Source: a virus
Virus record (IMG/VR): IMGVR_UViG_3300042518_000546
Location: 1 to 38,479 of that record
Reading direction: 5' to 3' (one strand)
DNA: 38,479 nt
The notes below the pieces were generated by a model that searched no databases, was not told where the DNA came from, and saw only the letters and a list, made by a program, of their open reading frames with translations. Made by a program: the position numbers and the translations under genes. This document shows positions 967 to 27,437 of the stretch, one piece after another. Position 1 is the first letter of the stretch. Each line of letters opens with the position of its first letter.

Positions 967-1259
967 CAAACTTCTCCTCCTTCATGAATCTCAAACATCA
1001 TTGCATTGATCTCATCATGATCTACTGCCAAAGAATCCCACCTAACATCATCAGCAGTGGCAATCTTATCACAATTGTCCATGCACCTAATGAACTTGAT
1101 GTAAGGTGATTCTTCATTAACATTGTGATACTCTACACATGCAACAGCAGTGTTATACAGGAAGGCATTATTCTGCATCCACAGAGATACATTCCAGGTT
1201 TCATAATTTGCCCAACCATTATAAGTTTGCTGGGTCATTGCTTTGGTTTCATTCATCAT
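966..1259 (-). CDS. Conserved phage protein with NYETWNV motif, 97 aa
   Basis: The motif GWANYETWNVSLWMQN at residues 15-30 is the hallmark of a small family (DUF7249-like) common in phages and mobile elements, of unknown function and often near antirestriction genes. The start is preceded by the promoter-palindrome cassette at 1255-1324, with ATGATGAATG placed 7 nt after TATCAT, so the mRNA is probably leaderless. First gene of a five-gene operon. Confidence 0.8.
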   Translation of the reverse strand: MMNETKAMTQQTYNGWANYETWNVSLWMQNNAFLYNTAVACVEYHNVNEESPYIKFIRCMDNCDKIATADDVRWDSLAVDHDEINAMMFEIHEGGEV

Positions 1260-1324
1260 ACATGTATGATAGCACGGATTCAGGGTTTTCGGTAAATGTT
1301 TGTGCCAGTTCTACAAGTGGCACA
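1255..1324 (-). promoter_or_regulatory. Stem-loop / promoter cassette
   Basis: In transcription order: hairpin 1301-1324 (TGCCACTT/AAC-type arms, directly after the stop at 1334), a TTTACC box, then an extended -10 TGCTATCAT (1266-1271 is the hexamer) inside the perfect 16-bp palindrome ATCATACATGTATGAT (1255-1270). It drives the 97-aa gene, whose ATG overlaps the palindrome. Confidence 0.8.
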
Positions 1325-1333
1325 TGGTATCAT

Positions 1334-1543
1334 TTAGGCAGCAGCAATAGCAGACTCCATGATTACATCTTGCTCACGCATCAGAACATAATCATAACTC
1401 CACTCAACTTCCAGGTGATTCTTGTATGCTTCAGCAGCAGACTTGCAATCAAACATTTTCAGAGAATCAAAAGATTCTCCTTCATAATCATGCCCACCGA
1501 TCACCACATAAACTTGCATTTGGTTGCTTTTCTCATTCATCAT
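1334..1543 (-). CDS. Hypothetical protein, 69 aa
   Basis: Small soluble protein (MMNEKSNQMQVYVVIGGHDYEG). The Y-VIGGHDYEGESFDSLK pattern looks like a small cyanophage family of unknown role. It is alone between two cassettes, so it forms its own transcription unit. Its start sits at the edge of the palindrome at 1539-1554, with no Shine-Dalgarno sequence. Confidence 0.75.
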   Translation of the reverse strand: MMNEKSNQMQVYVVIGGHDYEGESFDSLKMFDCKSAAEAYKNHLEVEWSYDYVLMREQDVIMESAIAAA

Positions 1544-1608
1544 ACATGTATGATAGCACGGATTCAGGGGTTTTGGTAAATGTTTGTGCCACTTTAATTA
1601 GTGGCACA
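1539..1608 (-). promoter_or_regulatory. Stem-loop / promoter cassette with compensated hairpin
   Basis: The palindrome ATCATACATGTATGAT at 1539-1554 overlaps the -10 and the start of the 69-aa gene. The hairpin at 1585-1608 has the outer arms TGTGCCACT and AGTGGCACA (9 bp) but a different loop (TTAATT) from other copies. Both arms changed together relative to the CCAGTT/AACTGG type, which supports selection for pairing. Confidence 0.8.
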
Positions 1609-1623
1609 TGGTATCACCCAGGA

Positions 1624-1803
1624 TCAGAAATCAATGGTATCATCATAATCATTCTCCATGATGTAGGCATCATCAGGCACAGGAACTTGATCCTCTTGAG
1701 TATCTACAACTGCATCCAGTACAGTGAGAAGATCATCACCAGTTTGTGCCTTTGCAAGCATCACCATAGCAGCAGTTTTAGGCAGGTTCAGAGTAGCAGT
1801 CAT
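1624..1803 (-). CDS. Small alanine/leucine-rich protein, 59 aa (paralogue of 6748-6918)
   Basis: Starts MTATLNLPKTAAMVMLAKAQ and ends in an acidic tail. Residues about 16-35 (LAKAQTGDDLLTVLDAVVDT) align with the 56-aa protein at 6748-6918 (LQSAQNGAELVEALDAYDST), so the two appear to be paralogues with a short amphipathic helix. Function unknown. Confidence 0.7.
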   Translation of the reverse strand: MTATLNLPKTAAMVMLAKAQTGDDLLTVLDAVVDTQEDQVPVPDDAYIMENDYDDTIDF

Positions 1804-1845
1804 GATGTTAATTGGAGTGAAAAAGTGTTAGTGAAAGAGTGTGAT

Positions 1846-2322
1846 TCAGTAGTTCTTGATGAACACGAATCCATTGTTGAAAGCATAATTATATTGGAGA
1901 TTTTGTTCCCAGGTTGCTTCCCAATCTACCACAACAAACTCAGGAACTTTATATCCCATGTCATCACAGTAGACTTCAGCAAAGATCTCAGGAGTTTCCC
2001 ATTCTCCATGATAGGCATCCTCAAACCTTTCTACTTCATGAATACCAAACTCTTCAATGAAAGCATCAACAGCAGCATAGGAATTGTCCTCACCAAAGCG
2101 AACATAATCATCATAATAGTTGATGAAATTATCATCGCCATGCTCATTGATGAAGTCCAGCATATCATCAAGATGGAAAGAATCTTCCATCAATTCTTCA
2201 ATCTTACTGCGCAGAGTATCACTAACCTCAGTCAGATAGTTGTCAACAGTAAGGGCAACAGGTTGAATGTTAGTTTGAAGAGCAATCATTTGGTTGGTTT
2301 GAGTGTTGTTTTGTTTTTCCAT
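1846..2322 (-). CDS. ArdA-like antirestriction protein, 158 aa
   Basis: The C-terminal half matches the ArdA antirestriction pattern: FEDAYHGEWETPEIFAEVY at residues 100-118, then VVDWEATWEQNL and the terminal GFVFIKNY. ArdA proteins mimic DNA and block type I restriction enzymes. The protein is strongly acidic, as expected, but the N-terminal third is not recognisably ArdA and may be divergent. The ATG at 2322 is used because an upstream in-frame ATG at 2340 lies in the promoter. The assignment comes from pattern only. Confidence 0.7.
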   Translation of the reverse strand: MEKQNNTQTNQMIALQTNIQPVALTVDNYLTEVSDTLRSKIEELMEDSFHLDDMLDFINEHGDDNFINYYDDYVRFGEDNSYAAVDAFIEEFGIHEVERFEDAYHGEWETPEIFAEVYCDDMGYKVPEFVVVDWEATWEQNLQYNYAFNNGFVFIKNY

Positions 2323-2387
2323 ACTAGTATGGTAGCACATTTTTGGGGTCTGTGCTCATTTCGTGTGACGGTTCTACAACTGGCACA
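2319..2387 (-). promoter_or_regulatory. Stem-loop / promoter cassette for the ArdA-like gene
   Basis: The 14-bp palindrome CCATACTAGTATGG (2319-2332) contains the start codon and follows the -10 TACCAT. The hairpin at 2364-2387 has the CTACAAC loop. A second inverted repeat, AGCACA/TGTGCT, sits between hairpin and promoter. Confidence 0.75.
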
Positions 2388-2462
2388 TCAGTATAAAGGA
2401 GGCAGACAACATTGTGCATTTGGATAATCATAAATGCCAGAACATTGCCTAGCATTTTAGGA

Positions 2463-2936
2463 TCATTGGTCACCATAATCTGCCCAGAAAGCATCATTGT
2501 GGGAAGGACGAATACAGGTTACAGCATGATCCTCAATGACTTTTGCATTGAAAGGACTATCATCAACCCAGAATTGAATGTCATCCCAAAAGCGAAGAAT
2601 ATCCATCAGTTGATGACCTTTAGCAGTGGAACCAGTTGCATCATCATCTGCATTTTTCATGTAGAGTGCATCAAACTCAGGCAAATGTTCCTGCAACCAA
2701 TATGCTGTACCATCTGCAAATGTATCAGGTCTGGCAGTAGCAATGACTAGATCAAATCCCATAGATTTGCAGTGCTTTGCAACATCTACAACTGCATCAA
2801 TAGCAGGGAATTGATCACATTCTTCAAACCCTGATTGATCACCATGATGACACAAAGTTGCATCTAGATCAAATACAACACACTTAGGGTTTGAGATGTT
2901 GTAAATTAGTTTTGAGAATGTTTTGTTTTTTTCCAT
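2463..2936 (-). CDS. HAD-superfamily phosphatase, 157 aa
   Basis: All HAD motifs are visible: nucleophile and acid/base Asp23/Asp25 in VFDLDATL, motif II Thr67 in ATARP, a probable motif III Lys106, and motif IV Asp125/Asp126 in VDDSPFN. The arrangement resembles the 3'-phosphatase half of T4 polynucleotide kinase and phage HAD nucleotidases, so a role in nucleotide or RNA-end repair is plausible but not proven. The start follows a consensus promoter (TTGACA-17-TATCAT). Confidence 0.85.
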   Translation of the reverse strand: MEKNKTFSKLIYNISNPKCVVFDLDATLCHHGDQSGFEECDQFPAIDAVVDVAKHCKSMGFDLVIATARPDTFADGTAYWLQEHLPEFDALYMKNADDDATGSTAKGHQLMDILRFWDDIQFWVDDSPFNAKVIEDHAVTCIRPSHNDAFWADYGDQ

Positions 2937-3001
2937 ACCTGTATGATAGCACGTTTTTAGGGATTTGTCAAGTGTATTGTGACACTAGTACAAGTGGCAC
3001 A
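2934..3001 (-). promoter_or_regulatory. Consensus sigma70 promoter and stem-loop, leaderless start
   Basis: TTGACA (2966-2971), 17-bp spacer, TATCAT (2943-2948), then ACAGGT and the ATG at 2936. The start codon lies exactly where transcription should begin. The imperfect palindrome CATACCTGTATG (2934-2945) overlaps it. Hairpin at 2978-3001. Confidence 0.85.
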
Positions 3002-3010
3002 TGGTATCAC

Positions 3011-3196
3011 TCACTCGTCGATCATTGATGATACATCTTTTTGCATGAGTTTGAGACTATGTTCATTCCAATTATCCAAGTTAAAATCACCACTAGGATA
3101 ATACAGTTCAGATAACCAGAAATCATAAATCATCTGATTTGAGGATAACTTTGCAAATGCTTTGTTAATAGCATCCATCACATCAGTCTGATTCAT
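3011..3196 (-). CDS. Hypothetical protein, 61 aa
   Basis: Small soluble protein starting MNQTDVMDAINKAF, with aromatic residues in the middle. I use the ATG at 3196, which overlaps the upstream gene by 14 nt, rather than the longer start at 3229. Last gene of the 3652-3011 operon. Function unknown. Confidence 0.7.
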   Translation of the reverse strand: MNQTDVMDAINKAFAKLSSNQMIYDFWLSELYYPSGDFNLDNWNEHSLKLMQKDVSSMIDE

Positions 3197-3377
3197 TTTC
3201 AAGGTAAGATTTAAGGAGTTGAACATCATCTAAAACAGATTTCATTGCTGCTCTACTATACCCAGCAGCATAGGGATAACCTTTCTCAGGATCATTGATT
3301 GCAGTCTCTGATTCATAGATTGCCTGCTCAAGATCACTCATAATTCTATTCAGTTTCAGTTGCACAGTTTCATTCAT
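3183..3377 (-). CDS. Hypothetical helical protein, 64 aa
   Basis: Starts MNETVQLKLNRIMSDLEQAIYESE and is predicted to be mostly alpha-helical. The ATG at 3377 overlaps the upstream stop (TGATG). An in-frame TTG two codons earlier is less likely. Function unknown. Confidence 0.72.
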   Translation of the reverse strand: MNETVQLKLNRIMSDLEQAIYESETAINDPEKGYPYAAGYSRAAMKSVLDDVQLLKSYLENESD

Positions 3378-3652
3378 CAGCAAGCACCTGCCATAGGATT
3401 ACCAAGTTGCGGAAGGTTGCTGTTATCTTTGGTCACAATGTAACCAAAACCAGCATACTCACGCAGTTGAACTTTCTTCTCAACTTTGTTAATGAACTTC
3501 TTGGAAATTGTCTCAATTCCTTTCCACTCAAGCACCTTAAGTGTCCAGGTTTCAGATATATCACCAAAAGGTGTTTTGACAGGATAAAATGACACTACCA
3601 TTGTGCCATCTTTAGATTTAATTGTGGGGAAGTCAGTCATTTGTTTTTCCAT
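3377..3652 (-). CDS. Hypothetical protein, 91 aa
   Basis: Basic, beta-rich protein (MEKQMTDFPTIKSKDGTMVV). It begins inside the CCATACTAGTATGG palindrome of its promoter cassette, so its mRNA is probably leaderless. First gene of a three-gene unit. No family recognised. Confidence 0.75.
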   Translation of the reverse strand: MEKQMTDFPTIKSKDGTMVVSFYPVKTPFGDISETWTLKVLEWKGIETISKKFINKVEKKVQLREYAGFGYIVTKDNSNLPQLGNPMAGAC

Positions 3653-3717
3653 ACTAGTATGGTAGCACAGTTTCAGTGGTTTCGGTAAATATAGCGACCA
3701 GTTCTACAACTGGCACA
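3649..3717 (-). promoter_or_regulatory. Stem-loop / promoter cassette
   Basis: Palindrome CCATACTAGTATGG (3649-3662) with -10 TACCAT, and a hairpin whose core CCAGTT/AACTGG spans 3698-3713. The upstream TTTACC box replaces a consensus -35. Confidence 0.75.
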
Positions 3718-3725
3718 TGATATAA

Positions 3726-3962
3726 TCAAACAGGGAGAATAGAGAAAGTTCCGCACCACTTGCGCACCCACAGCAGAGTATCATAATATCCACGAGGATT
3801 GGACATCACCATACTCACATTCTTCTCAGGATTGAAAGCAATAGCAACATACTTATAAACATCATGGGATTCTTCAATTTCTTGAATCCACATTTGATTC
3901 ACTTTACCTTCCTTCCAGTTAGTGTGATAGTGGAAGATTTCAGATGCAATTTGATTTTTCAT
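3726..3962 (-). CDS. Hypothetical protein, 78 aa
   Basis: Soluble protein (MKNQIASEIFHYHTNWKEGK) with a tryptophan-rich C-terminus. The ATG at 3962 is preferred over one at 3980, which would code through the -10 box. It is a single-gene unit between two cassettes. Function unknown. Confidence 0.72.
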   Translation of the reverse strand: MKNQIASEIFHYHTNWKEGKVNQMWIQEIEESHDVYKYVAIAFNPEKNVSMVMSNPRGYYDTLLWVRKWCGTFSILPV

Positions 3963-4027
3963 ACATGTATGATAGCACACTTTTGGGGGATGTGCTCATT
4001 TCGTGTGACAGTTCTACAACTGGCACA
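3959..4027 (-). promoter_or_regulatory. Stem-loop / promoter cassette
   Basis: Palindrome TCATACATGTATGA (3959-3972) with extended -10 TGCTATCAT. Hairpin 4004-4027 (TGTGCCAGTT/AACTGTCACA). It lies directly downstream of the tRNA-Thr gene. Confidence 0.75.
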
Positions 4028-4063
4028 TGGTATCATCCAAATGCCACACATTTGTGGAATAAA

Positions 4064-4135
4064 AGCTAGTGACAAGATTTGAACTTGCGACCTATGGTTT
4101 ACAAAACCATTGCACTACCACTGTGCTACACTAGC
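4064..4135 (-). tRNA. tRNA-Thr(UGU)
   Basis: Full cloverleaf: acceptor GCTAGTG/CACTAGC, anticodon stem ATGGT/ACCAT with loop TTTGTAA (anticodon UGU), T-arm GCAAG-TTCAAAT-CTTGT. No CCA is encoded. It reads the ACA codon and lies between the membrane protein gene and a promoter cassette. Confidence 0.93.
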
Positions 4136-4146
4136 AAAAAAGTTAT

Positions 4147-4470
4147 TTAGTTATCATTTACAAATTGAATGATGAACCAAATTACCAATGAAATTGCACC
4201 AATAAGTAGAATCCACTTCCAGGCATAGATTAACAACATCACTACAAGACCAATGAGTACTAAACCTCCACTAATTTCTGATGATGAACTAGATTCAGAT
4301 TCATTATCACTATACTCACTCCATGAGTTAGTTGTTCTCACAACACAACCAGGATTTGCACGTTGAACTCTTGCAACAGCATCATGTGAGGTAGGTGCCT
4401 CTACAGTTTCTGTGTAGTATTGAAAGAACTCAGTGTTAGGACCTGGACGAACTTCCACTTCATAAATCAT
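4147..4470 (-). CDS. Membrane protein with two C-terminal TM segments, 107 aa
   Basis: An N-terminal soluble part of about 55 residues contains a fold like small phage sensors (HDAVARVQRANPGCVV). It is followed by a serine-rich linker (residues 57-66) and two hydrophobic segments at about 68-84 and 86-103. It probably sits in the host inner membrane. It follows the nuclease gene by 3 nt and shares its transcript. Function unknown. Confidence 0.8.
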   Translation of the reverse strand: MIYEVEVRPGPNTEFFQYYTETVEAPTSHDAVARVQRANPGCVVRTTNSWSEYSDNESESSSSSEISGGLVLIGLVVMLLIYAWKWILLIGAISLVIWFIIQFVNDN

Positions 4471-4473
4471 AAC

Positions 4474-5148
4474 TCAGTTACCTTTGTTATTGTATTCCTG
4501 AATGTATTGCTTGAGAGTATCAACATAATCATCAGGGTTCTTAATAAAAACTTGCGTTTCACCTGAATGACAAGAAATCAAGGTCACAATTTGTTCTACT
4601 TTTTGACCAGTCATTTCCTCATACATCATAGCATAACCAGTCTCCTGAACAAAATAGTTTTGAATCTGATTTTCATACTTTGGTTTAGAAGAACTCTTGA
4701 AGTCAATTACAGACAGTTTACCATTGTATTCTGCAATACAATCTACACGACCTGCAATTCCAAGTTGTTCAGAATACAGGGCACATTCCTGATAGTGAAT
4801 GTTATTCACATCATCAAGAAGTGCCTTGAATTGATTGAACAATTTCAGTGCAACTTCATACTTCTCAGTATCATAATCTACATCAAGATTGTTGACATAA
4901 TCTTCCACAATTTTGTGGAACTTAGTGCCATTGTTTGATGCAAATTGACTAATTTGATTTGCTACATCAACACCTACACGTTCCCTCCACTCTGCAATAG
5001 ATTTGCGATTCTGATAGGAAGTAACTGTAGTGACAGAAGGCAACAGTTTACCATTCACAACATAACGACGTGAACCATCCACAGTTTCAGTGGGAATATC
5101 TGCAAGAATAGGCAGATTGAGGTGATTAAACTTAGTTTGGGTTTGCAT
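4474..5148 (-). CDS. PD-(D/E)XK exonuclease, MGME1/RecB-like, 224 aa
   Basis: The motifs fit the nuclease family common in cyanophages: LPSVTTV near residue 37, His78 in GTKFHKIVEDYV, Asp136 in GIAGRVDCIAEY, and the catalytic VIDFKSS with Asp149 and Lys151, followed by a Gln/Tyr helix (QETGYAMMY). Such enzymes degrade or trim DNA ends, probably for host DNA breakdown or recombination. The start is the ATG at 5148; an upstream TTG at 5169 is possible. No strong ribosome-binding site is visible. Confidence 0.88.
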   Translation of the reverse strand: MQTQTKFNHLNLPILADIPTETVDGSRRYVVNGKLLPSVTTVTSYQNRKSIAEWRERVGVDVANQISQFASNNGTKFHKIVEDYVNNLDVDYDTEKYEVALKLFNQFKALLDDVNNIHYQECALYSEQLGIAGRVDCIAEYNGKLSVIDFKSSSKPKYENQIQNYFVQETGYAMMYEEMTGQKVEQIVTLISCHSGETQVFIKNPDDYVDTLKQYIQEYNNKGN

Positions 5149-5165
5149 AATGTTGTTGTTAATAA

Positions 5166-5315
5166 TCAAAGGAACTCAGCAATATAATAGTCAACAGTTA
5201 TTTCTAGTTCTGCTGCTTTTGCTTCAAGTTCCATAGCATACTCTTCTGCCATTTGTGTATCTGCATGATCACAGAAGAGATCAAGAGTGGAATCAGTCAT
5301 AAACTTATCTTTCAT
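5166..5315 (-). CDS. Hypothetical acidic helical protein, 49 aa
   Basis: Starts MKDKFMTDSTLDLFCDHAD and contains an Ala/Glu-rich helix (EEYAMELEAKAAELE). It is preceded by a near-perfect promoter and starts at the predicted transcription start. Function unknown; it leads the operon with the nuclease gene. Confidence 0.72.
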   Translation of the reverse strand: MKDKFMTDSTLDLFCDHADTQMAEEYAMELEAKAAELEITVDYYIAEFL

Positions 5316-5379
5316 ACATGTATGATACCATAGATTCACCAAAAAGTCAAGCATAAGTGGACAGTTCTACAAGTGTCAC
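5312..5379 (-). promoter_or_regulatory. Consensus promoter and stem-loop, leaderless start
   Basis: TTGACT (5345-5350), 17-bp spacer, TATCAT (5322-5327), six nucleotides, then ATG at 5315. Palindrome TCATACATGTATGA at 5312-5325. Hairpin at about 5357-5379. It drives the 49-aa, nuclease and membrane protein genes and the tRNA-Thr. Confidence 0.85.
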
Positions 5380-5538
5380 TCAGAGTAGATTCATGCTCAC
5401 AACTAGCAGACCAAAGTGATTAACTTGATCTGCAACTTTCCTAATTGCAATTTCTTGATTCTGTGCATTAACTGTGTGAGTTCGATTAGACCAAACATCA
5501 ACAATCTTAAACACTTTCATGTCGTTTTGATTTATCAT
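5380..5538 (-). CDS. Hypothetical protein, 52 aa
   Basis: Read from the sequence: MINQNDMKVFKIVDVWSNRT at the start, VVSMNLL at the end. A short alpha/beta protein of unknown function with its own cassette promoter. Its stop codon abuts the next hairpin. Confidence 0.7.
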   Translation of the reverse strand: MINQNDMKVFKIVDVWSNRTHTVNAQNQEIAIRKVADQVNHFGLLVVSMNLL

Positions 5539-5602
5539 ACATGTATGGTAGCACGTTTTCAGGGGTTTTGGTAAAAATAGCGACCAGTTCTACAACTGTC
5601 AC
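5536..5602 (-). promoter_or_regulatory. Stem-loop / promoter cassette
   Basis: Palindrome CATACATGTATG (5536-5547) with -10 TACCAT and a TTTTACC box upstream. The hairpin (about 5580-5602) overlaps the stop codon of the upstream 39-aa gene. Confidence 0.75.
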
Positions 5603-5718
5603 ATTGTAGAACTTTGGTGAATCATTTTTTGTGTATCATGTTTCATTTGTTGGTCAGCAAAAGCATTAACAATGTTCAAGATTGCAAGGCAAGTGATACA
5701 AAACAGTGCAGATTTCAT
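5599..5718 (-). CDS. Small exported peptide, 39 aa
   Basis: MKSALFCITCLAILNIVNAF followed by A-DQ looks like a complete Sec signal peptide with a cleavage site after residue 21, leaving a mature peptide of about 18 residues (DQQMKHDTQKMIHQSSTM). Its ATG overlaps the upstream stop (ATGA). A periplasmic peptide this small could be a lysis or superinfection factor, but that is speculation. Confidence 0.65.
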   Translation of the reverse strand: MKSALFCITCLAILNIVNAFADQQMKHDTQKMIHQSSTM

Positions 5719-5885
5719 TCTTCTTCAACAGGAAACAGGTTAGCATACTCTTTATCAGTGAGAGTAAGATACTCTACATTAGCATACTTGTGTTCTTCAG
5801 CATACACCAACTGATAGTGAACAAAGTCACTCAAACTGGTGCTGCCATACTCAACAACACCATCAACCAAACAAAGATAATTCAT
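5715..5885 (-). CDS. Hypothetical protein, 56 aa
   Basis: Starts MNYLCLVDGVVEYGSTSLSD. Tyr- and Val-rich, soluble, of unknown function. It overlaps the upstream stop and the downstream start by ATGA at both ends, so it is translationally coupled in the 6298-5599 operon. Confidence 0.72.
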   Translation of the reverse strand: MNYLCLVDGVVEYGSTSLSDFVHYQLVYAEEHKYANVEYLTLTDKEYANLFPVEEE

Positions 5886-6298
5886 TTATACAAATAAGAA
5901 CCTGCCCAATCAGCACGTTGATACATCTCTTCACGAGATTTGTCATCAAGAAGATTATACCTTACACCATTCAATGCAGGTGCAGACCAAGTTGCAGATT
6001 TGTATACATCACCAGTATTCAGGTTCACAAATGCATGAGCACTGCGTTGCTTACTGTCATTGGTAACATGAATAATCTTGGCATACTTTCTGCCTTTGGT
6101 GTAAGTGTATTCATCAACACCTTCACCTTCACAGAGTTTATCAATCTGCTGTTGATGCCATTCTACACTATCACCTTTGGCAATGTAATCTCTGTGCCTT
6201 GCAATAGAATAAGACTGGTAGTTAGTACGAAGAACTTGACACATTTCTTCAATCTTATCAATAACTTTTTCAGTCATGAGAGTGGTTTGTTTGTTCAT
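5882..6298 (-). CDS. Conserved hypothetical protein, 138 aa
   Basis: An N-terminal helical half is followed by a beta-rich C-terminal half (GRKYAKIIHV, then SAHAFVNLNTGDVYKSATW). That second pattern recurs in phage proteins of unknown function. First gene of its operon and directly under a cassette promoter. Confidence 0.78.
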   Translation of the reverse strand: MNKQTTLMTEKVIDKIEEMCQVLRTNYQSYSIARHRDYIAKGDSVEWHQQQIDKLCEGEGVDEYTYTKGRKYAKIIHVTNDSKQRSAHAFVNLNTGDVYKSATWSAPALNGVRYNLLDDKSREEMYQRADWAGSYLYK

Positions 6299-6364
6299 AC
6301 TGTGTATGATAGCACAGTTTCAGGAGTTTTGGGGATTATAGCGACCAGTTCCACAACTGGCACA
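6296..6364 (-). promoter_or_regulatory. Stem-loop / promoter cassette
   Basis: The palindrome here has three central bases (CATAC-TGT-GTATG, 6296-6308), overlapping the start of the 138-aa gene, with extended -10 TGCTATCAT. The hairpin at 6341-6364 has a CCACAAC loop, a one-base variant. Confidence 0.75.
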
Positions 6365-6367
6365 TCA

Positions 6368-6696: not shown

Positions 6697-6722
6697 TGTC
6701 TTAGAAGTGTATAGAAAAGGAA

Positions 6723-7120: not shown

Positions 7121-7160
7121 GTTTCCTCAACTGTTGATGTAATCATCATAGCACATAAAC

Positions 7161-7295
7161 TTAGGTTTTGGGAGTGTTATGTGCCACTTCAACTTGTGTC
7201 ACAGGCATAGCATTAACCTGTGGCAAGTTAATGAAAGGATCTCCCACAAGCAGGATAACGCACAGGCAGACACCTTTCCAAACTTTATTAGACAT
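7161..7295 (-). CDS. Small exported or membrane peptide, 44 aa
   Basis: MSNKVWKGVCLCVILLVGDP with a hydrophobic core suggests a signal peptide, with possible cleavage near VNA-MP. A longer reading from 7421 exists, but that stretch shadows the 61-aa gene, so I use the ATG at 7295, which overlaps that gene's stop by 8 nt. Confidence 0.55.
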   Translation of the reverse strand: MSNKVWKGVCLCVILLVGDPFINLPQVNAMPVTQVEVAHNTPKT

Positions 7296-7473
7296 CGTAG
7301 ATTTTGTTGAAATTAAATTGATCCTCAAACCATGCTTTTTCTGCATCATCCCAGATGCTAAGTCCAAGCAAGAAACTATAATATTCTGCCCACACTCTAC
7401 AACTATCCTCAAACCATTCATTACTGGGTTTGCTAACAGAATAATCTTGAAAGTTCATTTGTTTGTTTGTCAT
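7288..7473 (-). CDS. Hypothetical protein, 61 aa
   Basis: MTNKQMNFQDYSVSKPSNEW with a Trp-rich C-terminal half (AEYYSFLLGLSIWDDAEKAW). Its start overlaps the CATGAATACATG palindrome of its promoter. Function unknown. Confidence 0.75.
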   Translation of the reverse strand: MTNKQMNFQDYSVSKPSNEWFEDSCRVWAEYYSFLLGLSIWDDAEKAWFEDQFNFNKIYDV

Positions 7474-7538
7474 GAATACATGATAGCATAAAAACTGGCA
7501 CTGTGCTCATTTACAGTGCCAGTTTTACAAGTGTCACA
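7471..7538 (-). promoter_or_regulatory. Cassette with overlapping hairpin and terminator
   Basis: The palindrome CATG-AATA-CATG (7471-7482) follows the -10 TATCAT. The cassette hairpin (about 7516-7538) shares its GTGCCAGTTTT arm with the long terminator hairpin at 7491-7526, so only one of the two can form. Confidence 0.75.
7491..7526 (-). terminator. Perfect 14-bp inverted repeat, terminator
   Basis: AAAACTGGCACTGT (7491-7504) pairs perfectly with ACAGTGCCAGTTTT (7513-7526) around an 8-nt loop. On the minus strand the stem is followed by a short T run. It lies between the 69-aa gene and the next promoter. Confidence 0.8.
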
Positions 7539-7882: not shown

Positions 7883-7951
7883 ATTACTTTGTAATGATAA
7901 CAGATTTAAGGTCAAAAGTCAAGGCATAGTGGACAGTTGCACAAGTGTCAC
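7883..7951 (-). promoter_or_regulatory. Consensus promoter with ATTAC-type palindrome and stem-loop
   Basis: TTGACT (7917-7922), 17 bp, TATCAT (7894-7899), overlapping the palindrome ATTACTTTGTAAT (7883-7895). Hairpin at about 7929-7951. Here a 21-nt leader precedes the ATG, unlike the CATAC-type cassettes. Confidence 0.85.
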
Positions 7952-7980
7952 AAGATAACTTTATACCCACTGTCCTCTTT

Positions 7981-8463: not shown

Positions 8464-8756
8464 AAATTCCACATACCTCTTTGAATCAAAATTTTACGAA
8501 TTTCATTGTAAGCAAACTGTTGAATCTGCCTGTCAGCAGCATTATCCAGAACATAATACATTTTGTTCAAATACTCATCTTGAGTTGTAACTTTGACTAC
8601 TTTTGCATTAGTAACTCCAAGACCAGAAATAGGAGAACCTGCTTTTACTTTGTTCTTACCAAAGTTACCAGAAACCCTGCCACTTGTGCGAAGTTTAGGT
8701 TTAATCTTGGAAAGATTAGAAGTAGTGAAGGAGTAAGTCATCTGTGATTCATTCAT
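8460..8756 (-). CDS. Hypothetical basic protein, 98 aa
   Basis: MNESQMTYSFTTSNLSKIKP; a basic, low-complexity N-terminal half rich in Lys, Gly and Ser precedes a helical C-terminal half. The ATG at 8756 sits in the CATACAAGTATG palindrome. Its stop converges on the HNH gene stop. Confidence 0.72.
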   Translation of the reverse strand: MNESQMTYSFTTSNLSKIKPKLRTSGRVSGNFGKNKVKAGSPISGLGVTNAKVVKVTTQDEYLNKMYYVLDNAADRQIQQFAYNEIRKILIQRGMWNF

Positions 8757-8817
8757 ACAAGTATGATAGCACACAAAAGGGCACTGTGGGGATTTACTGT
8801 GCCACTTGTACAAGTGT
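8754..8817 (-). promoter_or_regulatory. Stem-loop / promoter cassette
   Basis: Imperfect palindrome CATACAAGTATG (8754-8765) with -10 TATCAT. The hairpin core ACTTGTACAAGT (8804-8815) is a perfect 12-bp palindrome inside the 3' end of the upstream coding region. GGCAC/GTGCC arms form a competing hairpin. Confidence 0.75.
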
Positions 8818-8982
8818 CCTCTCGATGTCCTCTACAGTGCTTTGCAGTTTGTTATACAGGGCACTGAGGGATACTTTACCACTACCTTCCATAATCTTCT
8901 GCTCTTTCTTTGACAGCAACTGTAGGGCAGTCTTCAGTGCATCCAACTCATCAAGGTTCAAACGTACAAAATCTTCATCCAT
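8794..8982 (-). CDS. Hypothetical helical protein, 62 aa
   Basis: MDEDFVRLNLDELDALKTAL and onward is strongly helical and probably coiled coil. Its last eight codons (RTLVQVAQ) are encoded by the cassette hairpin, so the regulatory element is part of the protein-coding sequence. It overlaps the upstream gene by 8 nt. Confidence 0.75.
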   Translation of the reverse strand: MDEDFVRLNLDELDALKTALQLLSKKEQKIMEGSGKVSLSALYNKLQSTVEDIERTLVQVAQ

Positions 8983-9957: not shown

Positions 9958-10028
9958 GATTACAAAGTAATCATAGCATACTGTCAAGGCATTTGGGGGG
10001 TTTGTGTGCCACTTCATCATCTGGCACA
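9958..10028 (-). promoter_or_regulatory. Promoter cassette with GATTACAAAGTAATC palindrome
   Basis: The 15-bp palindrome (9958-9972) overlaps the extended -10 TGCTATGAT. The hairpin at 10005-10028 keeps TGTGCCA and TGGCACA arms with a diverged centre. No consensus -35 at the right spacing. Confidence 0.75.
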
Positions 10029-12902: not shown

Positions 12903-12920
12903 CGGTTTGGTTGCTTATGA

Positions 12921-12982
12921 GAGTATTATAGGGCATCACAGACCACTTTGGGTGCCCTGCTGTGCCAGTTCTTCAAGTGTCC
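12921..12982 (-). promoter_or_regulatory. Promoter (TATAAT) and stem-loop cassette
   Basis: A perfect TATAAT (12925-12930) lies 22 nt before the ATG of the 69-aa gene. A GGGCA/TGCCC stem (about 12931-12959) just before it and the cassette hairpin (12961-12982) precede it. No palindrome like those of the other cassettes is obvious. Confidence 0.65.
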
Positions 12983-13080
12983 TTACACCGATGTAATGGA
13001 ATACGAAGAAACTGAAAGAACCTTCCAGTCCATCCTATCTGTGCTCCACATTTAGGGCAACAATAAGATGGGTGAGTCAT
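12973..13080 (-). CDS. Zinc-ribbon-like protein, 35 aa
   Basis: MTHPSYCCPKCGAQIGWTGR carries CCPKCG, and a later HRC could complete a small zinc knuckle. The stop codon lies inside the cassette hairpin. The start overlaps the upstream stop as ATGA. Confidence 0.62.
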   Translation of the reverse strand: MTHPSYCCPKCGAQIGWTGRFFQFLRIPLHRCKDT

Positions 13081-15650: not shown

Positions 15651-15719
15651 AATTACAAAGTAATTATAGCACATTCTTAATGGTTTTAGTGGTCTATTGT
15701 GCCAGTTGTACAGGTGGCA
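15651..15719 (-). promoter_or_regulatory. Cassette with TATAAT promoter and AATTACAAAGTAATT palindrome
   Basis: Extended -10 TGCTATAAT (hexamer 15663-15668) overlaps the 15-bp palindrome at 15651-15665. The hairpin at 15698-15719 has a GTACAG loop. It drives the 47-aa gene and probably the block below it. Confidence 0.8.
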
Positions 15720-15732
15720 TGGACAATAAAAA

Positions 15733-18085: not shown

Positions 18086-18153
18086 ATTACCTAGTAATAA
18101 TAGCAGGTTTGGGGAGGAAAGTCAAGGGGTTTGTGCCACTTACAGAACTGTCA
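18086..18153 (-). promoter_or_regulatory. Consensus promoter with ATTAC-type palindrome and stem-loop
   Basis: TTGACT (18120-18125), 17-bp spacer, TATTAT (18097-18102), overlapping ATTAC-CTA-GTAAT (18086-18098). The hairpin (about 18132-18153) contains the stop codon of the upstream 44-aa gene. Confidence 0.82.
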
Positions 18154-18274
18154 CAGTGTTCCAATCTTGTCTATACACTAAAAGGAGAGCACTGCTACCA
18201 TTTGGAGTGAAGGTAAAATATTGATTATCCACAAATACAATTCTTCCCTCCATATTTTTATATGATATGAGCAT
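18140..18274 (-). CDS. Hypothetical protein, 44 aa
   Basis: MLISYKNMEGRIVFVDNQYF, beta-rich. Its last codons and stop lie inside the cassette hairpin. Function unknown. Confidence 0.66.
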   Translation of the reverse strand: MLISYKNMEGRIVFVDNQYFTFTPNGSSALLLVYRQDWNTVTVL

Positions 18275-19785: not shown

Positions 19786-19969
19786 TTTGTTCTTTCAAGT
19801 AAAGTTTGACTTGTTCCATAATCATAGCACCAATCTCTTCTGATGTCAGTCCATTGAGGACACTCCATCTACTGTCACAAGGATCCCACTCTATAGTAAA
19901 TGTACCATCAGCATTTTCAATTACTTTGAGACCATCATCAATCTTTTGGTTTTGGTTTGTTACATTCAT
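19778..19969 (-). CDS. Conserved small protein, 63 aa
   Basis: MNVTNQNQKIDDGLKVIENA followed by DGTFTIEWDPCDSRWSVLNG. The EWDPCDSRWS motif marks a phage family of unknown function. The downstream gene start overlaps its stop by 8 nt. Confidence 0.75.
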   Translation of the reverse strand: MNVTNQNQKIDDGLKVIENADGTFTIEWDPCDSRWSVLNGLTSEEIGAMIMEQVKLYLKEQNA

Positions 19970-21415: not shown

Positions 21416-21438
21416 GCACCTGTTGATGAATATGCTCT

Positions 21439-21496
21439 ATTATACAGCATCATCCTGCTTTTGAGAAAGTTGTTGTGCCAGTTGCTCAACTGTCCT
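21439..21496 (-). promoter_or_regulatory. Promoter and stem-loop inside coding sequence
   Basis: TATAAT (21439-21444) lies 24 nt before the 178-aa gene. The cassette hairpin at 21474-21495 lies wholly inside the upstream 86-aa coding region, coding RTVEQLAQ. Confidence 0.7.
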
Positions 21497-21700
21497 CATG
21501 TATTTTCTCATCATCCACCATTTGCCAATAGGATTACTAATCCAGAAAGGATGAAATCTAATAATCCAGATCATCCTTTCAAAATTTAGTTTAATAATTT
21601 TAAAAACAAGTAAAAGATAATCACCTACATTTTGATCTACAATCATCATTACTGCAACAACAGTAAATGCTATGAATAGTGTGTAATAGTAGGTGTTCAT
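21440..21700 (-). CDS. Membrane protein, 86 aa
   Basis: MNTYYYTLFIAFTVVAVMMI begins a hydrophobic helix. A second aromatic hydrophobic stretch (about 43-60) may lie at the membrane. The basic tail (WMMRKYMRTVEQLAQQ) carries the regulatory hairpin in its DNA. Function unknown. Confidence 0.78.
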   Translation of the reverse strand: MNTYYYTLFIAFTVVAVMMIVDQNVGDYLLLVFKIIKLNFERMIWIIRFHPFWISNPIGKWWMMRKYMRTVEQLAQQLSQKQDDAV

Positions 21701-21889: not shown

Positions 21890-22918
21890 TTAAATTGTAA
21901 TCCACCTTTCATTTTCCAAGGTCCAATTAGTTACATCTGCAATTCTTTCTCTAACTGACTTGGCAGGTTCCCAACCCATTTCTCTCATCTTATCACCATC
22001 AAGTGCATACCTAAGGTCATGTCCTGGTCGTGAGGAATGGAAGTCAATCAATTCATAATTAAGTTCTTTGCCTTGTGCCTCTGCAATGATTTGTGCAAGT
22101 TCAAGGTTGTTTAGTTCTTCTGAACCAACAATGTTGAATTTAGGACACTTAGCACCACCATAGGTATATTCAAGACTACCTTGATAGTTCAGAAGGAATA
22201 GAATTGCACTAGCAACATCCTCAGCATGGATGTAATGTCTAGACCCAGGAATTGTACAAGTTGAGTCACTATGAATGGTTACTTTTTCACCATCTCTAGA
22301 CTTCTTGATGCACATAGGAATGTACTTCTCTGGATGCTGACGCTCTCCAAATACATTCATAGTATGAGTAATATAAATGGGAAGTCCATAAGTATTCTCA
22401 TATGCTACAGCAAGTTCTTCACCTCCTGCCTTGGTTGCACTGTATGGGTTAGTAGAATTATATCTATCATTCTCTTTGTATTTGATTCCATCTGGAGCAG
22501 GACCAAATACTTCATCAGTGCTGAAGTAAATGAATCTTTCTAGGTTGTCTTTCTGTGTTCTTGCAAACTCTAGAATGTTACAGGTTGCCACAACATTATC
22601 AAGAACAAACTCCATAGGATACTCAATACTGCGATCTACATGAGAACCAGCAGCAAGATGAAGAATGTAATCAACTTTACCAATTTCTGATTTAATGAGA
22701 GGATTGAGTTCTGCTTTAAGGTCATGGAATACAACTTTTACACGTTTACGATCATCTGCTGTAAAATCAGAAAGAATGTCATTCAATCTATTAAGATTTC
22801 CACTATAGTCAAGTCTGTCTAGAGTTACAACATCCCAGTCAGTTTCTTTGAGAATGTATCCAATAAGGTGGTGAGCAATAAATCCTGCACCACCAGTAAT
22901 AAGAACTCTTTTAGTCAT
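21890..22918 (-). CDS. NAD-dependent epimerase/dehydratase, RmlB-like (dTDP-glucose 4,6-dehydratase type), 342 aa
   Basis: Extended short-chain dehydrogenase. The Rossmann motif GGAGFIA (9-15), catalytic STDE (133-136) and the YSATK pair (Tyr159, Lys163) are all present, and the length fits RmlB (about 340-360 aa). The Asp-Glu pair after the catalytic Thr suggests dehydration of a dTDP- or UDP-glucose. In a phage this may modify host or phage glycans or make a sugar for DNA or fibre decoration. An upstream TTG (22924) is possible but less likely. Confidence 0.88.
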   Translation of the reverse strand: MTKRVLITGGAGFIAHHLIGYILKETDWDVVTLDRLDYSGNLNRLNDILSDFTADDRKRVKVVFHDLKAELNPLIKSEIGKVDYILHLAAGSHVDRSIEYPMEFVLDNVVATCNILEFARTQKDNLERFIYFSTDEVFGPAPDGIKYKENDRYNSTNPYSATKAGGEELAVAYENTYGLPIYITHTMNVFGERQHPEKYIPMCIKKSRDGEKVTIHSDSTCTIPGSRHYIHAEDVASAILFLLNYQGSLEYTYGGAKCPKFNIVGSEELNNLELAQIIAEAQGKELNYELIDFHSSRPGHDLRYALDGDKMREMGWEPAKSVRERIADVTNWTLENERWITI

Positions 22919-22920
22919 AT

Positions 22921-23181
22921 TCAATCAAGGTAGTAATCACTATTATCCACCAAATTCCACTCTAAGTCAAGTTCTTCCAGAAGTTTAATTAGTTCTTCAT
23001 CATTATCTGGAAAAGTTTGTTCTTCCTCAAAAGTAAAACTTGCCTCACACAATCCAGGACCATACTCAGCAGGATCATAGAAAGTTGGCGCATAAGTTTC
23101 AACTGCATCTTCAACTACAGCAGTTACATAAACAGATCCATCATCATCAAGACTAATACTTTCAATGCTCAAGATACTCAT
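22921..23181 (-). CDS. Conserved acidic protein, 86 aa
   Basis: MSILSIESISLDDDGSVYVT followed by acidic strands and an acidic C-terminal helix. The YVTAVVEDAVETYAPTFYDP pattern is typical of a small cyanophage family. Ends 2 nt before the RmlB-like gene. Function unknown. Confidence 0.78.
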   Translation of the reverse strand: MSILSIESISLDDDGSVYVTAVVEDAVETYAPTFYDPAEYGPGLCEASFTFEEEQTFPDNDEELIKLLEELDLEWNLVDNSDYYLD

Positions 23182-23535: not shown

Positions 23536-23619
23536 CATAGTCCCTCCTGTTTGTGCATTGTTAAGAGGCATGGAGGGGGTGGGACTTATTCAAAGTTTGG
23601 ACCTTTGATGCCCATAAGT

Positions 23620-24046: not shown

Positions 24047-25144
24047 TTACTCCCCTTCCTGTTGCTGAAACTCAGCATCAATCTTGTCATACAATTCAAC
24101 AAAAGTTGTTTTAGTTTCATCATCAAAGCGATTGAGACAAACTTTGATTGCCTTATCTTTTTTTCCAAAGATGGAATATGCTTTGATGATGTGAACAAGA
24201 CGACGAGTGGAAATGACTTCATCAATACCACCATCTGCAAAGGTCTTACGAATAATCTCAGACCAAGTGCACAGATGTTTAATAAAATCAGTGTGCTCTC
24301 CAACCATAGGAATACTAAGTGATTCTGCTACTTTTGTCAAGATTTTTGTCTCAACATTAATGGTAGGATACTCTTGCTCAAAGGTAATAGGGAACCTCTC
24401 AAGAAATGCCTCATTGAGCACATTGGTGCCAATGAACCTACCATCATCAGAACCTTTACCTTTAGTATTAGCAGTAGCAAACACATTGAACCCTTGTTTA
24501 GGGGTAACATGCTTACCAATTTTCTTCAGGAAGACACCCTTACCCTCCAAAATTGACTGAAGACACATGATTTTATTGGAAGCAAGGTCAATCTCATCAA
24601 GAAGAAGAATTGCACCACGCTCCATTGCTTCAACCACAGGACCATTGTGCCATACAGTTTCGCCATTGACAAGACGAAAACCACCAATTAGGTCATCCTC
24701 ATCAGTTTCAATAGTAATATTGACACGAATCAGTTCACGACCCAACTGTGCACATGTTTGCTCTACACCAAAGGTTTTACCATTACCAGAAAGACCAGTA
24801 ATAAAAGTGGGATAGAATAGACCAGAGGAAACAACTTTTTTAATATCACTAAAGTTACCAAAGCTGACGAAGGTATCATCTTTCTTAGGAATGAGGTTTT
24901 GGACAACTGACAAAAGGGAAGAAATGGTATCTTTTCCTTCTGCAGCAGGAGAGTTATAGGTGTCTTCCAGTTCTTTTACTGTTGCCTCCAGATTCCATTT
25001 ACCACGACTAGTTTTATATGCTTGCAGATACTTCGATGCTGTAGCATAACTAGTGTTCATTTGATTTGCCACTGATTTGACTGCATTAGCATCAATTTCA
25101 GTACCAAATTGTTCCTTTAGCAAACTAATAAGTTGTTCCTGCAT
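24047..25144 (-). CDS. cobS: CobS-like MoxR-family AAA+ ATPase, 365 aa
   Basis: Walker A GLSGNGKT (117-124), Walker B ILLLDEID (179-186) and the conserved AAA sensor region FNVFATANTKGKGSDDG place it in the MoxR/CobS group, as do cyanophage cobS genes. The N-terminal 85 residues form a helical extension. CobS-type ATPases partner with a VWA protein, here the next gene upstream. Whether it acts in cobalt insertion or as a general remodelling factor is not shown. The ATG at 25144 is used since the longer reading passes through the promoter. Confidence 0.9.
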   Translation of the reverse strand: MQEQLISLLKEQFGTEIDANAVKSVANQMNTSYATASKYLQAYKTSRGKWNLEATVKELEDTYNSPAAEGKDTISSLLSVVQNLIPKKDDTFVSFGNFSDIKKVVSSGLFYPTFITGLSGNGKTFGVEQTCAQLGRELIRVNITIETDEDDLIGGFRLVNGETVWHNGPVVEAMERGAILLLDEIDLASNKIMCLQSILEGKGVFLKKIGKHVTPKQGFNVFATANTKGKGSDDGRFIGTNVLNEAFLERFPITFEQEYPTINVETKILTKVAESLSIPMVGEHTDFIKHLCTWSEIIRKTFADGGIDEVISTRRLVHIIKAYSIFGKKDKAIKVCLNRFDDETKTTFVELYDKIDAEFQQQEGE

Positions 25145-25156
25145 GGTCTTGGGTTG

Positions 25157-25225
25157 ATTACTTTGTAATGATAGCATGGATTTGAGGTTTGGGAACCACT
25201 TAGTAGACAGTTCCCAAACTGGCAC
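25157..25225 (-). promoter_or_regulatory. Promoter cassette with ATTACTTTGTAAT palindrome
   Basis: The palindrome at 25157-25169 overlaps the -10 TATCAT (25168-25173). A GGGAAC/GTTCCC hairpin (25191-25196, 25210-25215) competes with a CAGTT/AACTG pairing in the upstream element. It lies between the VWA and ATPase genes. Confidence 0.75.
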
Positions 25226-25226
25226 A

Positions 25227-27365
25227 TCAAGCAATCATATCAACAAAAGAGGACAAAAGTTTCTTATTTGTCTTCTTTTTATTCAACATTTTAGCAAATG
25301 CTGATTTAATTTGTGCTTTGGTTGCACCTTCCTCAACTTCAAACTTTTCATCTTGCGAAAGTGAAGTAGTGGGAATTACATGGAATTGATCATAACCAGT
25401 TCCAGTGAATGTGATGAATTGTTCTTTCTTGTAAATTGACTTTACTTTCTCATAATCACCAAATTCCTTGCCATACCAATCATAGCAAGTCTTGAAATCC
25501 CTACCAGGAACAACCCTAAAGTTGATGAAGTTTACAGTAGAAAACCTATCTTTCAGAGTAGAAAGAAGAACTTTGGAATACTGTGGGAAGTTTCCATAGT
25601 TATAGGAAGAATAGATTCTACCATTAGTCCTGTTACGAACAGTAGTGTTAAATGCTTTAGTGAGGCTAACATATTCCTCACCACTATTATTCTTTTTCTT
25701 GATGGTAGTTGCATTCACATAACCCTCACCATCAGTCAGGAAAACAACATTCACCTTTTGAAGTTTGTTTTTCTTTTGAAAGTCAGGAATCAGCGAATGC
25801 AATGCAAGCATTGTATCACCAATAGGAGAACCAGACAAGTCAAGATGACGAGGAGCACAACCATTACCTTTCTGAAATGCCCAACATGCTGCCCAGATGT
25901 GCTTCATTTGAGCATCCAATTCACGAGAATTACTCTTACTGGTAAAGAAGTTCATCAGTCTAAATGACTGTTCTGGTGCAATAACACCTCCTACTTTCTT
26001 GTAGATAGGAGGATGATTTGGCTGCAATTCAACATAAGCATTGCAATCCACAGTGAAAGCATAAACTTCAAAGGGAATGTTGACCTTTTTACAAAACCAA
26101 ATCAAATTAAACAGTTGCTTACAAGTATCCAACATCCAATGGGACATTGAACCAGACCAGTCAAGAATAAAGATAAGACCATGATTCTTACCATCAGGAA
26201 TTACTGACACTTTTTTGAACAAATCTTCATTGAATTTGTAAGTATGAAGTTTGGATGTGTCAAGTACACCAGTACGTGCAGTAGAAGAACGAGCATATTG
26301 GTCTGCTGATTTCTTACATTCAAACTCCTTAACCAGATAAGAAACTTCTTTCTCTGCAGATTTCTTGTAAGAATTGTATTCTACCAGAACATTCTGATAC
26401 CAATCCTTCATCCAACCAGAATGACTTTGATAATATTCTTCAGTTTTCTGATGAATGAAATCATTAGGAATAATCACATTCTCAAGAATAATTTCAGGAA
26501 GTTCCACATAGTTAGTCTCTTGACCATACTTGTTGGTCAAATCCTGTGCCTTTTCCTCAAAGGATTGTGAAGTCTTGGATTCAAACTCACCATGCTCATT
26601 GCTGGGTTCACGTCCACCACCAGCAGGAGTTTCTTGCTCCATAGTAATAGGATTTTCACCCTGTGATTCTTGTTGAGACTTAGAAGATTCCTCTGATTCT
26701 TGTTCAATATCCATAGAATCTTGAGTATTTTGTTCAGCATTCTCAGGAAGATCTACTTCTTCTCCACTTTGTCCTTGATTTTGAACAATTTCAGGCATCT
26801 CAGTGAGTTGTTTTTTCTTGTAGTTCAAGAACTGAACAATCTCACGAGCAATATCAAGAACTTCTTGGAAAGTTTCCAGTTGACTGATACGAGTCACAAA
26901 CTCATTCTCTTCATCAGAGAAAGCAATATTGTGAAATGCACCAATCTTAAAATACATATTGATGCGATCAATAAAGGTAAGATTATCAAGATTCTCATCC
27001 TTCACTGAGAAGAAATCATCATTATTCAGTTCATTATATCCATTGTAAAATGTCTTAGAAAGACCAGGATACTTTTTCTTCATCAAACGTTCTACACGAA
27101 CATCTTCAATTACATTGATAAAGTCCTTAGGAACATCAGCATACTCTTTTGTCCAATCAATATTATCAGTAAAGAGTGCATGTCCCACTTCATGACCTAC
27201 AAGAAGATCATAAACAGTTGCAGATGCTTTATCCCATAAAGGAAGAACAAGAACCCTACGATCAACATCAAAGCACGCAGTAGGAACTTTCTTGTGTTCA
27301 ATGATAAGGTTCTCAGTTGCCAGACATTTGGCAAGAGAACCTTTAACTTCAAGATTGACTGACAT
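25227..27365 (-). CDS. HExxH peptidase-VWA protein, CobT-like, 712 aa
   Basis: N-terminal region with HEVGH (58-62) and, 25 residues on, NVIEDVRVERL, a zinc-metalloprotease-like arrangement (the Glu in EDVR may be the third ligand). An acidic, Glu/Gln/Ser-rich linker follows. A C-terminal VWA domain has the MIDAS motif DWSGS near 401-405 and FLTDGEGY near 545. CobT partners of CobS have the same layout without a confirmed protease. Start ATG at 27365, 18 nt after a class-variant promoter. Confidence 0.85.
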   Translation of the reverse strand: MSVNLEVKGSLAKCLATENLIIEHKKVPTACFDVDRRVLVLPLWDKASATVYDLLVGHEVGHALFTDNIDWTKEYADVPKDFINVIEDVRVERLMKKKYPGLSKTFYNGYNELNNDDFFSVKDENLDNLTFIDRINMYFKIGAFHNIAFSDEENEFVTRISQLETFQEVLDIAREIVQFLNYKKKQLTEMPEIVQNQGQSGEEVDLPENAEQNTQDSMDIEQESEESSKSQQESQGENPITMEQETPAGGGREPSNEHGEFESKTSQSFEEKAQDLTNKYGQETNYVELPEIILENVIIPNDFIHQKTEEYYQSHSGWMKDWYQNVLVEYNSYKKSAEKEVSYLVKEFECKKSADQYARSSTARTGVLDTSKLHTYKFNEDLFKKVSVIPDGKNHGLIFILDWSGSMSHWMLDTCKQLFNLIWFCKKVNIPFEVYAFTVDCNAYVELQPNHPPIYKKVGGVIAPEQSFRLMNFFTSKSNSRELDAQMKHIWAACWAFQKGNGCAPRHLDLSGSPIGDTMLALHSLIPDFQKKNKLQKVNVVFLTDGEGYVNATTIKKKNNSGEEYVSLTKAFNTTVRNRTNGRIYSSYNYGNFPQYSKVLLSTLKDRFSTVNFINFRVVPGRDFKTCYDWYGKEFGDYEKVKSIYKKEQFITFTGTGYDQFHVIPTTSLSQDEKFEVEEGATKAQIKSAFAKMLNKKKTNKKLLSSFVDMIA

Positions 27366-27382
27366 GTGGGATTTCTTTACTG

Positions 27383-27437
27383 TCCTTATAGGATAGCACA
27401 AAAAAAGGGAACTGGAGGTCTGTATGGACCAGTTCCC
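27383..27437 (-). terminator. Strong terminator and promoter of the peptidase/VWA gene
   Basis: GGGAACTGG (27407-27415) and CCAGTTCCC (27429-27437) form a perfect 9-bp stem, followed by seven T on the minus strand (27400-27406). Immediately after it comes -10 TATCCT (27390-27395) within a TCCT-TAT-AGGA palindrome (27383-27393), so one block ends one transcript and starts the next. Confidence 0.85.

Follow-up and report, generated by a model that had tools for sequence, protein, structure and literature searches.

What does a short palindrome do that returns 21 times along one viral DNA? We asked this of IMG/VR record IMGVR_UViG_3300042518_000546, a single record whose 38,479 bases (the window) carry larger open reading frames (ORFs) mostly on the minus strand. 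A 24-bp imperfect palindrome, TGTGMCASTT-N4-AASTGKCACA, recurs in it on the minus strand, the same strand as the genes it serves. A preliminary description had taken this repeat for a hairpin and compared it with the promoter early stem-loop (PeSL) cassettes of T4-type phages. The reading that we favor, with a probability of roughly three in four, is that the repeats are operators, forming a host-type switch bound by a host GntR activator at early sigma-70 promoters. That the repeat is a dimer-bound DNA operator of sigma-70 promoters is by itself well supported.

The repeat keeps a fixed register to a sigma-70 promoter

About 19 dispersed cassettes had been described, and the 24-nt inverted repeat was indeed present at all 19 named places, the last two truly starting at 25203 and 27425. 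Two extra copies, at 7180-7203 and 19856-19879, bring the total to 21. Searching the window for the half-site GTGCCAGTT with at most one mismatch returned 30 matches against 9.2 expected, the maximum in 100 shuffles being 16. Copy 19856, at 16.1 bits, falls short of the best matches in 20 simulated sequences (18.7) and is accepted for its in-register -10 box; copies 25203 (20.2 bits) and 27425 (20.1 bits) barely exceed that simulated best. The copies are not the near-identical hairpin that had been quoted, as the exact hairpin gave no match and the arms vary separately around TGTGMCASTT. Many copies do lie close behind a stop codon, as described, but others abut the ORF before them or run into it, and the one at 4004 follows a tRNA gene.

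Sites were found by the palindrome first, and the best -10 box was then sought 15-53 nt downstream. Results showed that in the window this box stands at 29 nt in 20 copies and at 30 nt in one, in agreement with the claim that the repeat always precedes a promoter, and all 21 boxes are in-register extended -10 elements of sigma-70 type. Copy 1585 has an equally good -10 box also on its opposite side.

The same register was found outside the window. One degenerate pattern was used to retrieve the IMG/VR loci, so that its fixed letters are biased while both S positions were free; 653 sites were reduced to 351 non-redundant ones, of which 298 could be oriented, and 271 of these 298 had the -10 box at 28-31 nt and were used. 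This set includes the window copies and related families, and its rows are not independent. Seven cyanophage genomes, scanned with a matrix built from the window copies only, contained 80 sites above 17 bits, whereas the reversed sequences gave 1; T4 and Ma-LMM01 had none above this score. Among the 73 matrix sites with a good -10 box in the seven genomes, 60 had it at 28-31 nt. The register check covered seven complete genomes and parts of two (S-SSM7 and B23), with S-T4, P-TIM40, P-HM2 and S-RSM4 left out; whole genomes were scanned as 20-kb pieces, and sites or ORFs spanning piece ends are missed.

If the last base of the -10 box is set at -7, the centre of the operator falls at about -53.5 to -54.5, and the site ends 29-30 nt before the extended -10 box. 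Alignment of the IMG/VR set on the -10 box revealed the extended TG, a purine at +1 and T at +2, and likeness to a -35 box was maximal at 17-nt spacing. Because the repeat is a palindrome whose arms show no selected pairing (see below) and stands at a fixed distance from the -10 box, we interpret it as a dimer operator near -54. The two inverted 10-bp half-sites TGTGMCASTT would be bound by a dimeric activator at this position, next to the -35 region; the promoter is of the sigma-70 type and has an extended -10 box.

Read along one strand, 161 of 271 sites have C/C or G/G at the S position. The two half-sites thus often differ there, which makes the operator look intrinsically asymmetric. We also considered a start-site palindrome seen in the window copies (CATACATGTATG, TTAC-GTAA), which by eye was absent from most isolates and was dropped.

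A fixed place beside the promoter suits any dimeric regulator, including a repressor that shuts the early promoters off later in infection, and GntR proteins are often repressors. We consider this quite unlikely. Activators usually sit upstream of the -35 region, and the site ends there. Moreover, the -35 box at 17-nt spacing matched at 4 or more of 6 positions in only 89 of 363 promoters, and such poor boxes suggest that the promoters need help. Operator score and -35 match were uncorrelated (rho -0.03), which favors neither side.

The arms of the repeat do not pair as an RNA hairpin

Arms that pair in RNA should covary. Across the 271 sites no column showed a clear excess of pairing, and the real arms paired at 7.73 of 10 positions against 7.91 ± 0.05 for re-paired arms. 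The same was true of 92 sites from isolates (7.04 of 10 against 7.39 ± 0.08 after arm swapping) and, although not significant alone, of the window copies (7.00 against 7.25 ± 0.23). At the S position 101 of the 271 sites pair, against 131 expected for independent arms (z -3.7). Perfect 10-bp stems were found in 14 of 271 sites of the IMG/VR set, in none of the 92 from isolates and in none of the 21 in the window. Without such covariation the repeat is not an RNA hairpin: relatives do not conserve the pairing, and the -10 box keeps the rigid distance that an operator would have. The hairpin is thereby unsupported, and we rejected the stem-loop reading. Lack of conserved pairing in relatives had been named beforehand as a result that would refute it, and there the arms pair worse than re-paired arms. 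The paired change of both arms at 1585-1608, cited as support for a stem, is a single case, and no column shows clear positive covariation across relatives.

Could the cassettes nevertheless be PeSL-like, that is, the stem-loop terminator of the upstream gene joined to an early promoter and spread by recombination? Copies are intergenic and often directly behind stop codons, and a minority carry a hairpin between operator and -10 box: a terminator-like hairpin was found there in 15 of 271 IMG/VR sites, where shuffles predict 0.8, and a hairpin with a T-run in 7 of 29 sites in phage ACG-2014f and in 2 of 21 in the window. Furthermore, a potential stem loop at 11369-11391 of S-PM2, given in a passage of PMC4503421, abuts an operator at 11347. 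The repeat itself, however, does not keep pairing, and a terminator needs no rigid spacing. A GC-rich stem followed immediately by a U-run, the mark of an intrinsic terminator, is not a general trait of the repeat; the spacer hairpin shows it in 2 of 21 copies. A loose terminator scan of bases 1-19000 of the window gave 11 sites against 8.7 ± 3.1 expected and flagged one repeat (3694). We therefore hold a PeSL-like nature to be very unlikely; the likeness remains in the dispersed promoter cassettes, but the conserved stem-loop was not seen.

The operator is shared among cyanophages

A pattern scan of IMG/VR revealed at least 119 stretches with the operator, and the same scan of a bacterial and archaeal genome collection revealed 3. 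We then counted the core, with at most one mismatch, in individual phages: S-SKS1 (5), P-SSM2 (9), S-SSM7 (12), S-T4 (3), B23 (15), Syn9 (2), S-PM2 (6), P-SSM4 (4), ACG-2014f (28), DSL-LC03 (2), P-TIM40 (7), P-HM2 (5), S-RSM4 (5) and Mic1 (42). It is present in all 11 Kyanoviridae cyanophages checked, plus P-HM2 and S-SKS1, whose records carry no family name, and the Microcystis siphophage Mic1. The cassettes are thus common to related cyanophages, consistent with the earlier view of a cyanophage-like genome with dispersed promoter cassettes.

At the same threshold the core was not found in T4, KVP40, Ma-LMM01, P-SSP7, Syn5, PSS2 or HTVC008M, and the reversed control pattern matched once each in T4, P-SSP7 and KVP40. 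HTVC008M, Kyanoviridae on record, has Pelagibacter as host and 0 core sites, which we count in favor of a host-type switch. In a sample chosen by protein, 39 of 53 loci of the DUF7717 family had an upstream site above 10 bits, or 44 of 53 counting five at 9.4-9.5. BLAST searches of single cassettes against phages gave weak matches only, yet these pointed to isolates. A literature search on the motif letters returned one cyanophage, Mic1, among the matches listed, by which absence from print is not shown.

The operator matches the promoter element of a host small RNA

We also looked for the element in the hosts. Of 194 cyanobacterial genomes, 10 contained the strict 22-nt pattern and 1 the reversed pattern. 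Two of these 10 chromosomal sites adjoin the Rfam Cyano-1 RNA (RF01701), which we take to be the Yfr2 family, and four more precede a stretch that by eye has a common start and a terminator-like hairpin, with no Rfam match. Cyano-1 loci were then analyzed directly, using 54 of 56 (two truncated loci were left out, some are near-duplicates, and RNA starts are approximate for minus-strand loci). Upstream of the RNA, 27 of the 54 loci had a best site above 5 bits and 18 one above 10 bits; among 586 control windows the corresponding counts were 4 and 0. In 31 of 37 Cyano-1 sites picked by score and position, the best -10-like box stood at 28-31 nt, the box being sought only at 24-35 nt with ties assigned to 29. 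These results support that the phage operator is the same element as the host Yfr2/Cyano-1 promoter site.

Passages of Axmann 2005 (PMC1242208) describe Yfr2-5 as RNAs of 89-95 nt with mapped starts, and the title of Lambrecht 2018, as it stands in the reference list of PMC9692554, states that a host GntR protein regulates Yfr2. The GntR domain PF00392 was found above cut-off in 35 of 41 Cyanobiaceae genomes, most having one strong domain, and in none of 18 operator-bearing phage records. A regulator of the GntR family is thus available in most hosts searched and was not found in the phages, the search having addressed the family rather than the PMM1637 orthologue itself. The likeliest binder of the phage copies would be the host GntR-family regulator reported for Yfr2, and the effect of its binding would presumably be activation. 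Since the cell already contains this GntR protein, the host RNA polymerase could transcribe the early phage genes without delay, starting at many scattered promoters.

Timing in Mic1

A repeated promoter-bearing motif of Mic1 is printed in a passage of PMC7156551, and the printed sequence contains the palindrome studied here, with TTGACA and then a -10 box behind it. According to the RNA sequencing passages of PMC11237433, expression of six Mic1 genes (gp49 and gp69-gp73) is highest at 0.5 h, and 17 E2 early genes come next. We located gp69-gp73 at 67,243-71,901, within an operator array at about 66-72 kb, and five of the six earliest genes named in those passages therefore fall inside the array. 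Among the E2 genes, gp52 and gp59 each have a site directly upstream (57776 and 60228). A factor acting so early in Mic1 is most simply a host protein. We infer that the window genes behind the operators are early as well.

The best -10 box of the 54 listed Mic1 sites stands at 29-31 nt in 15 and at 39 nt in 7, the others being scattered; the spacing classes near 30 and 39 nt lie about one helical turn apart. The operator arrays of Mic1 often have a period near 56-62 nt.

Search for a phage regulator

By considering that phage sites are more numerous and nearer consensus than host sites, one may ask whether an activator encoded by the phage or delivered with the virion binds the operator, the host small RNA (sRNA) element being alike by common ancestry or chance. 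In line with this, uncharacterised families occur in all seven complete operator-bearing genomes, an example being DUF7717 (PF24835), and passages of PMC11237433 report a helix-turn-helix domain for the Mic1 E1 gene gp73. The DUF7717 gene lies at 5882-6298 of the window, minus strand, with phrog_818 as its P-SSM4 homologue; all seven complete operator-bearing genomes that were searched have the family, and T4 and Ma-LMM01 do not. The operator often precedes the gene. Its predicted model is confident (mean pLDDT 92.6) and had no PDB match at E 0.001 (top VIA Z 5.3); without a clear known fold, nothing marks DUF7717 as a DNA binder, and we rejected it as the regulator.

No match to a transcription-regulator family was found among 20 hand-picked small conserved P-SSM4 proteins, a search that was not exhaustive. 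The AbrB-like look of one operator-driven family was an impression from sequence, a clear match being found in S-PM2 only among nine phage genomes, and it was set aside. A phage activator is unlikely in our view, considering these negative results and that the operator is common to unrelated phages (Kyanoviridae, Mic1) and to host sRNA promoters with similar spacing.

Weighing the proposed host GntR switch

Several observations weigh against a host GntR activator working through the phage operators. In the hosts, a looser core pattern was found in 7 of 201 Cyanobiaceae genomes against 1 of 201 reversed, a rarity that marks the host copies as weaker than those of phages; the best site scored -7 bits or less in 12 of the 54 Cyano-1 loci; and PF00392 had no match in 6 of the 41 host genomes, whose completeness is not given. 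Among phages, Ma-LMM01, Syn5, P-SSP7 and PSS2 lack the core, which is therefore not required for infecting cyanobacteria. P-SSM4 keeps the register in just 3 of 9 sites, and Syn9 and DSL-LC03 have only 3 and 4 sites above 17 bits. In Mic1, the best -10 box falls at 29-31 or 39 nt for just 22 of the 54 listed sites, and gp68 also lies within the array yet is not named among the E1 genes in the passages of the RNA sequencing paper. Finally, binding and transcription in the phage of the window are predictions from its sequence.

A wider history is possible, and we propose it tentatively. Unrelated cyanophages (Kyanoviridae, the Llyrvirus S-SKS1 and Mic1) may each have adopted the Yfr2 promoter, under GntR control in the host, as an early promoter code common to them all, multiplied it to about 30-40 copies in some genomes and improved it beyond the host copies, sometimes with a terminator nested inside and, in one lineage, driving leaderless mRNAs in which transcription begins at the start codon itself.

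Predicted leaderless mRNAs and the cassettes of the window

In 44 of the 271 promoters an ATG stands 6-7 nt past the -10 box, on or beside the predicted +1. Each of these 44 ATGs opens a frame of at least 40 codons, which the other two frames do in 4 of 88 cases. Within 15 codons, 19 of the 44 show no further in-frame ATG; many of the 44 cases share gene families. In the window an ATG was found at or next to the predicted +1 in 11 of 21 copies (1259-8756). Several such cases also have a later in-frame ATG, a possible alternative start. These data suggest that some early promoters yield leaderless mRNAs.

All 21 copies of the window are on the minus strand. Seven of the copies with an ATG at or next to the predicted +1 carry TGCTATCAT: 1259..1324 (operator 1301-1324), 1543..1608 (operator 1585-1608), 2936..3001 (operator 2978-3001, TTGACA as -35, predicted +1 being the ATG of a HAD-like ORF at 2463-2936), 3962..4027 (operator 4004-4027, downstream of tRNA-Thr), 6298..6364 (operator 6341-6364, before the DUF7717 gene, ATG 1 base past the predicted +1), 7473..7538 (operator 7515-7538, with a terminator-like hairpin and T-run in the spacer) and 8756..8821 (operator 8798-8821, with a terminator-like hairpin in the spacer). 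Three others, each with its ATG at the predicted +1, carry TGCTACCAT, at 2322..2387 (operator 2364-2387), 3652..3717 (operator 3694-3717, the only copy flagged by the loose terminator scan) and 5538..5603 (operator 5580-5603), and the last, 5315..5380, combines operator 5357-5380 with a TTGACT -35, TGGTATCAT and an ATG at the predicted +1.

Among the other ten copies, TGCTATGAT is found at 9963..10028 (operator 10005-10028) and in the two extra copies, 7138..7203 (operator 7180-7203), which the preliminary description did not list, and the weaker 19814..19879 (operator 19856-19879). A TTGACT -35 occurs at 7887..7952 (operator 7929-7952, TGTTATCAT) and 18090..18155 (operator 18132-18155, TGCTATTAT), and TATAAT at 12918..12984 (operator 12961-12984, as the -10 at spacing 30) and 21432..21497 (operator 21474-21497). 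The copy at 15656..15721 (operator 15698-15721, TGCTATAAT) lies behind an intrinsic-terminator-like hairpin at 15753-15733. At 25161..25226 the operator (25203-25226, TGCTATCAT) precedes the CobS-like AAA gene, with an ATG at 25144, and at 27383..27448 a diverged operator (27425-27448) has a T-run and TGCTATCCT downstream.

Other features of the window

The CobS-like AAA gene occupies 24047-25234 on the minus strand, its DNA being 74-79% identical to cyanophages, and a GDP-mannose dehydratase/epimerase-like gene lies at 21890-22924, minus strand, with DNA 77.6% identical to Marine virus AG-345-E08. An abiF RNA (RF03085, 50.6 bits) was found at 23541-23577, minus strand, beside tRNA-Arg; a passage of PMC9964418 reports abiF RNA in cyanophage S-CREM1. 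A weak tRNA-like match at 17691-17773, minus strand (30.2 bits, cut-off 29), was not called by ARAGORN. An ORF of 2079 amino acids, at 31352-37591 on the minus strand, lies in a stretch with a G+C content of 0.43-0.50, against 0.33-0.39 for most of the record.

Implications and comparison with known systems

If the host GntR switch is correct, marine and freshwater cyanophages would begin transcription with host RNA polymerase through a copied host sRNA promoter, and phage and host Yfr2 would compete for one activator; leaderless early mRNAs would be expected. One host protein is thereby named as candidate, and uncultured cyanophages gain a searchable early-promoter signature. Parts of the finding, including the link to the host element, may have been published earlier (Doron 2016, Lambrecht 2018).

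Among the closest known systems is the Yfr2 (Cyano-1, RF01701) element with its reported GntR regulator PMM1637: the same palindrome stands at a similar distance from a -10-like box in many cyanobacteria, and most hosts searched have a GntR domain, whereas the phage copies precede many protein genes and are stronger and near consensus. Doron 2016 reportedly described a novel conserved element controlling early genes of Syn9 and P-TIM40; both phages carry the core site. The Mic1 motif shares palindrome, TTGACA and -10 box and differs as a tandem array in a siphophage, and the passages of PMC7156551 on this motif link it neither to other phages nor to hosts. The PeSL cassettes of T4-type phages, described in two papers by Krisch and colleagues (reference list of PMC4503421), are alike as dispersed promoter cassettes between small genes, while here there is no conserved stem and instead an operator in fixed register. 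The late promoters of P2 and P4 are activated by Ogr/delta, a phage-encoded zinc-finger protein, at about -55 and have a weak -35. They resemble the promoters described here in the inverted repeat near -55 and in the weak -35, and differ in sequence and in having a phage-encoded zinc-finger activator.

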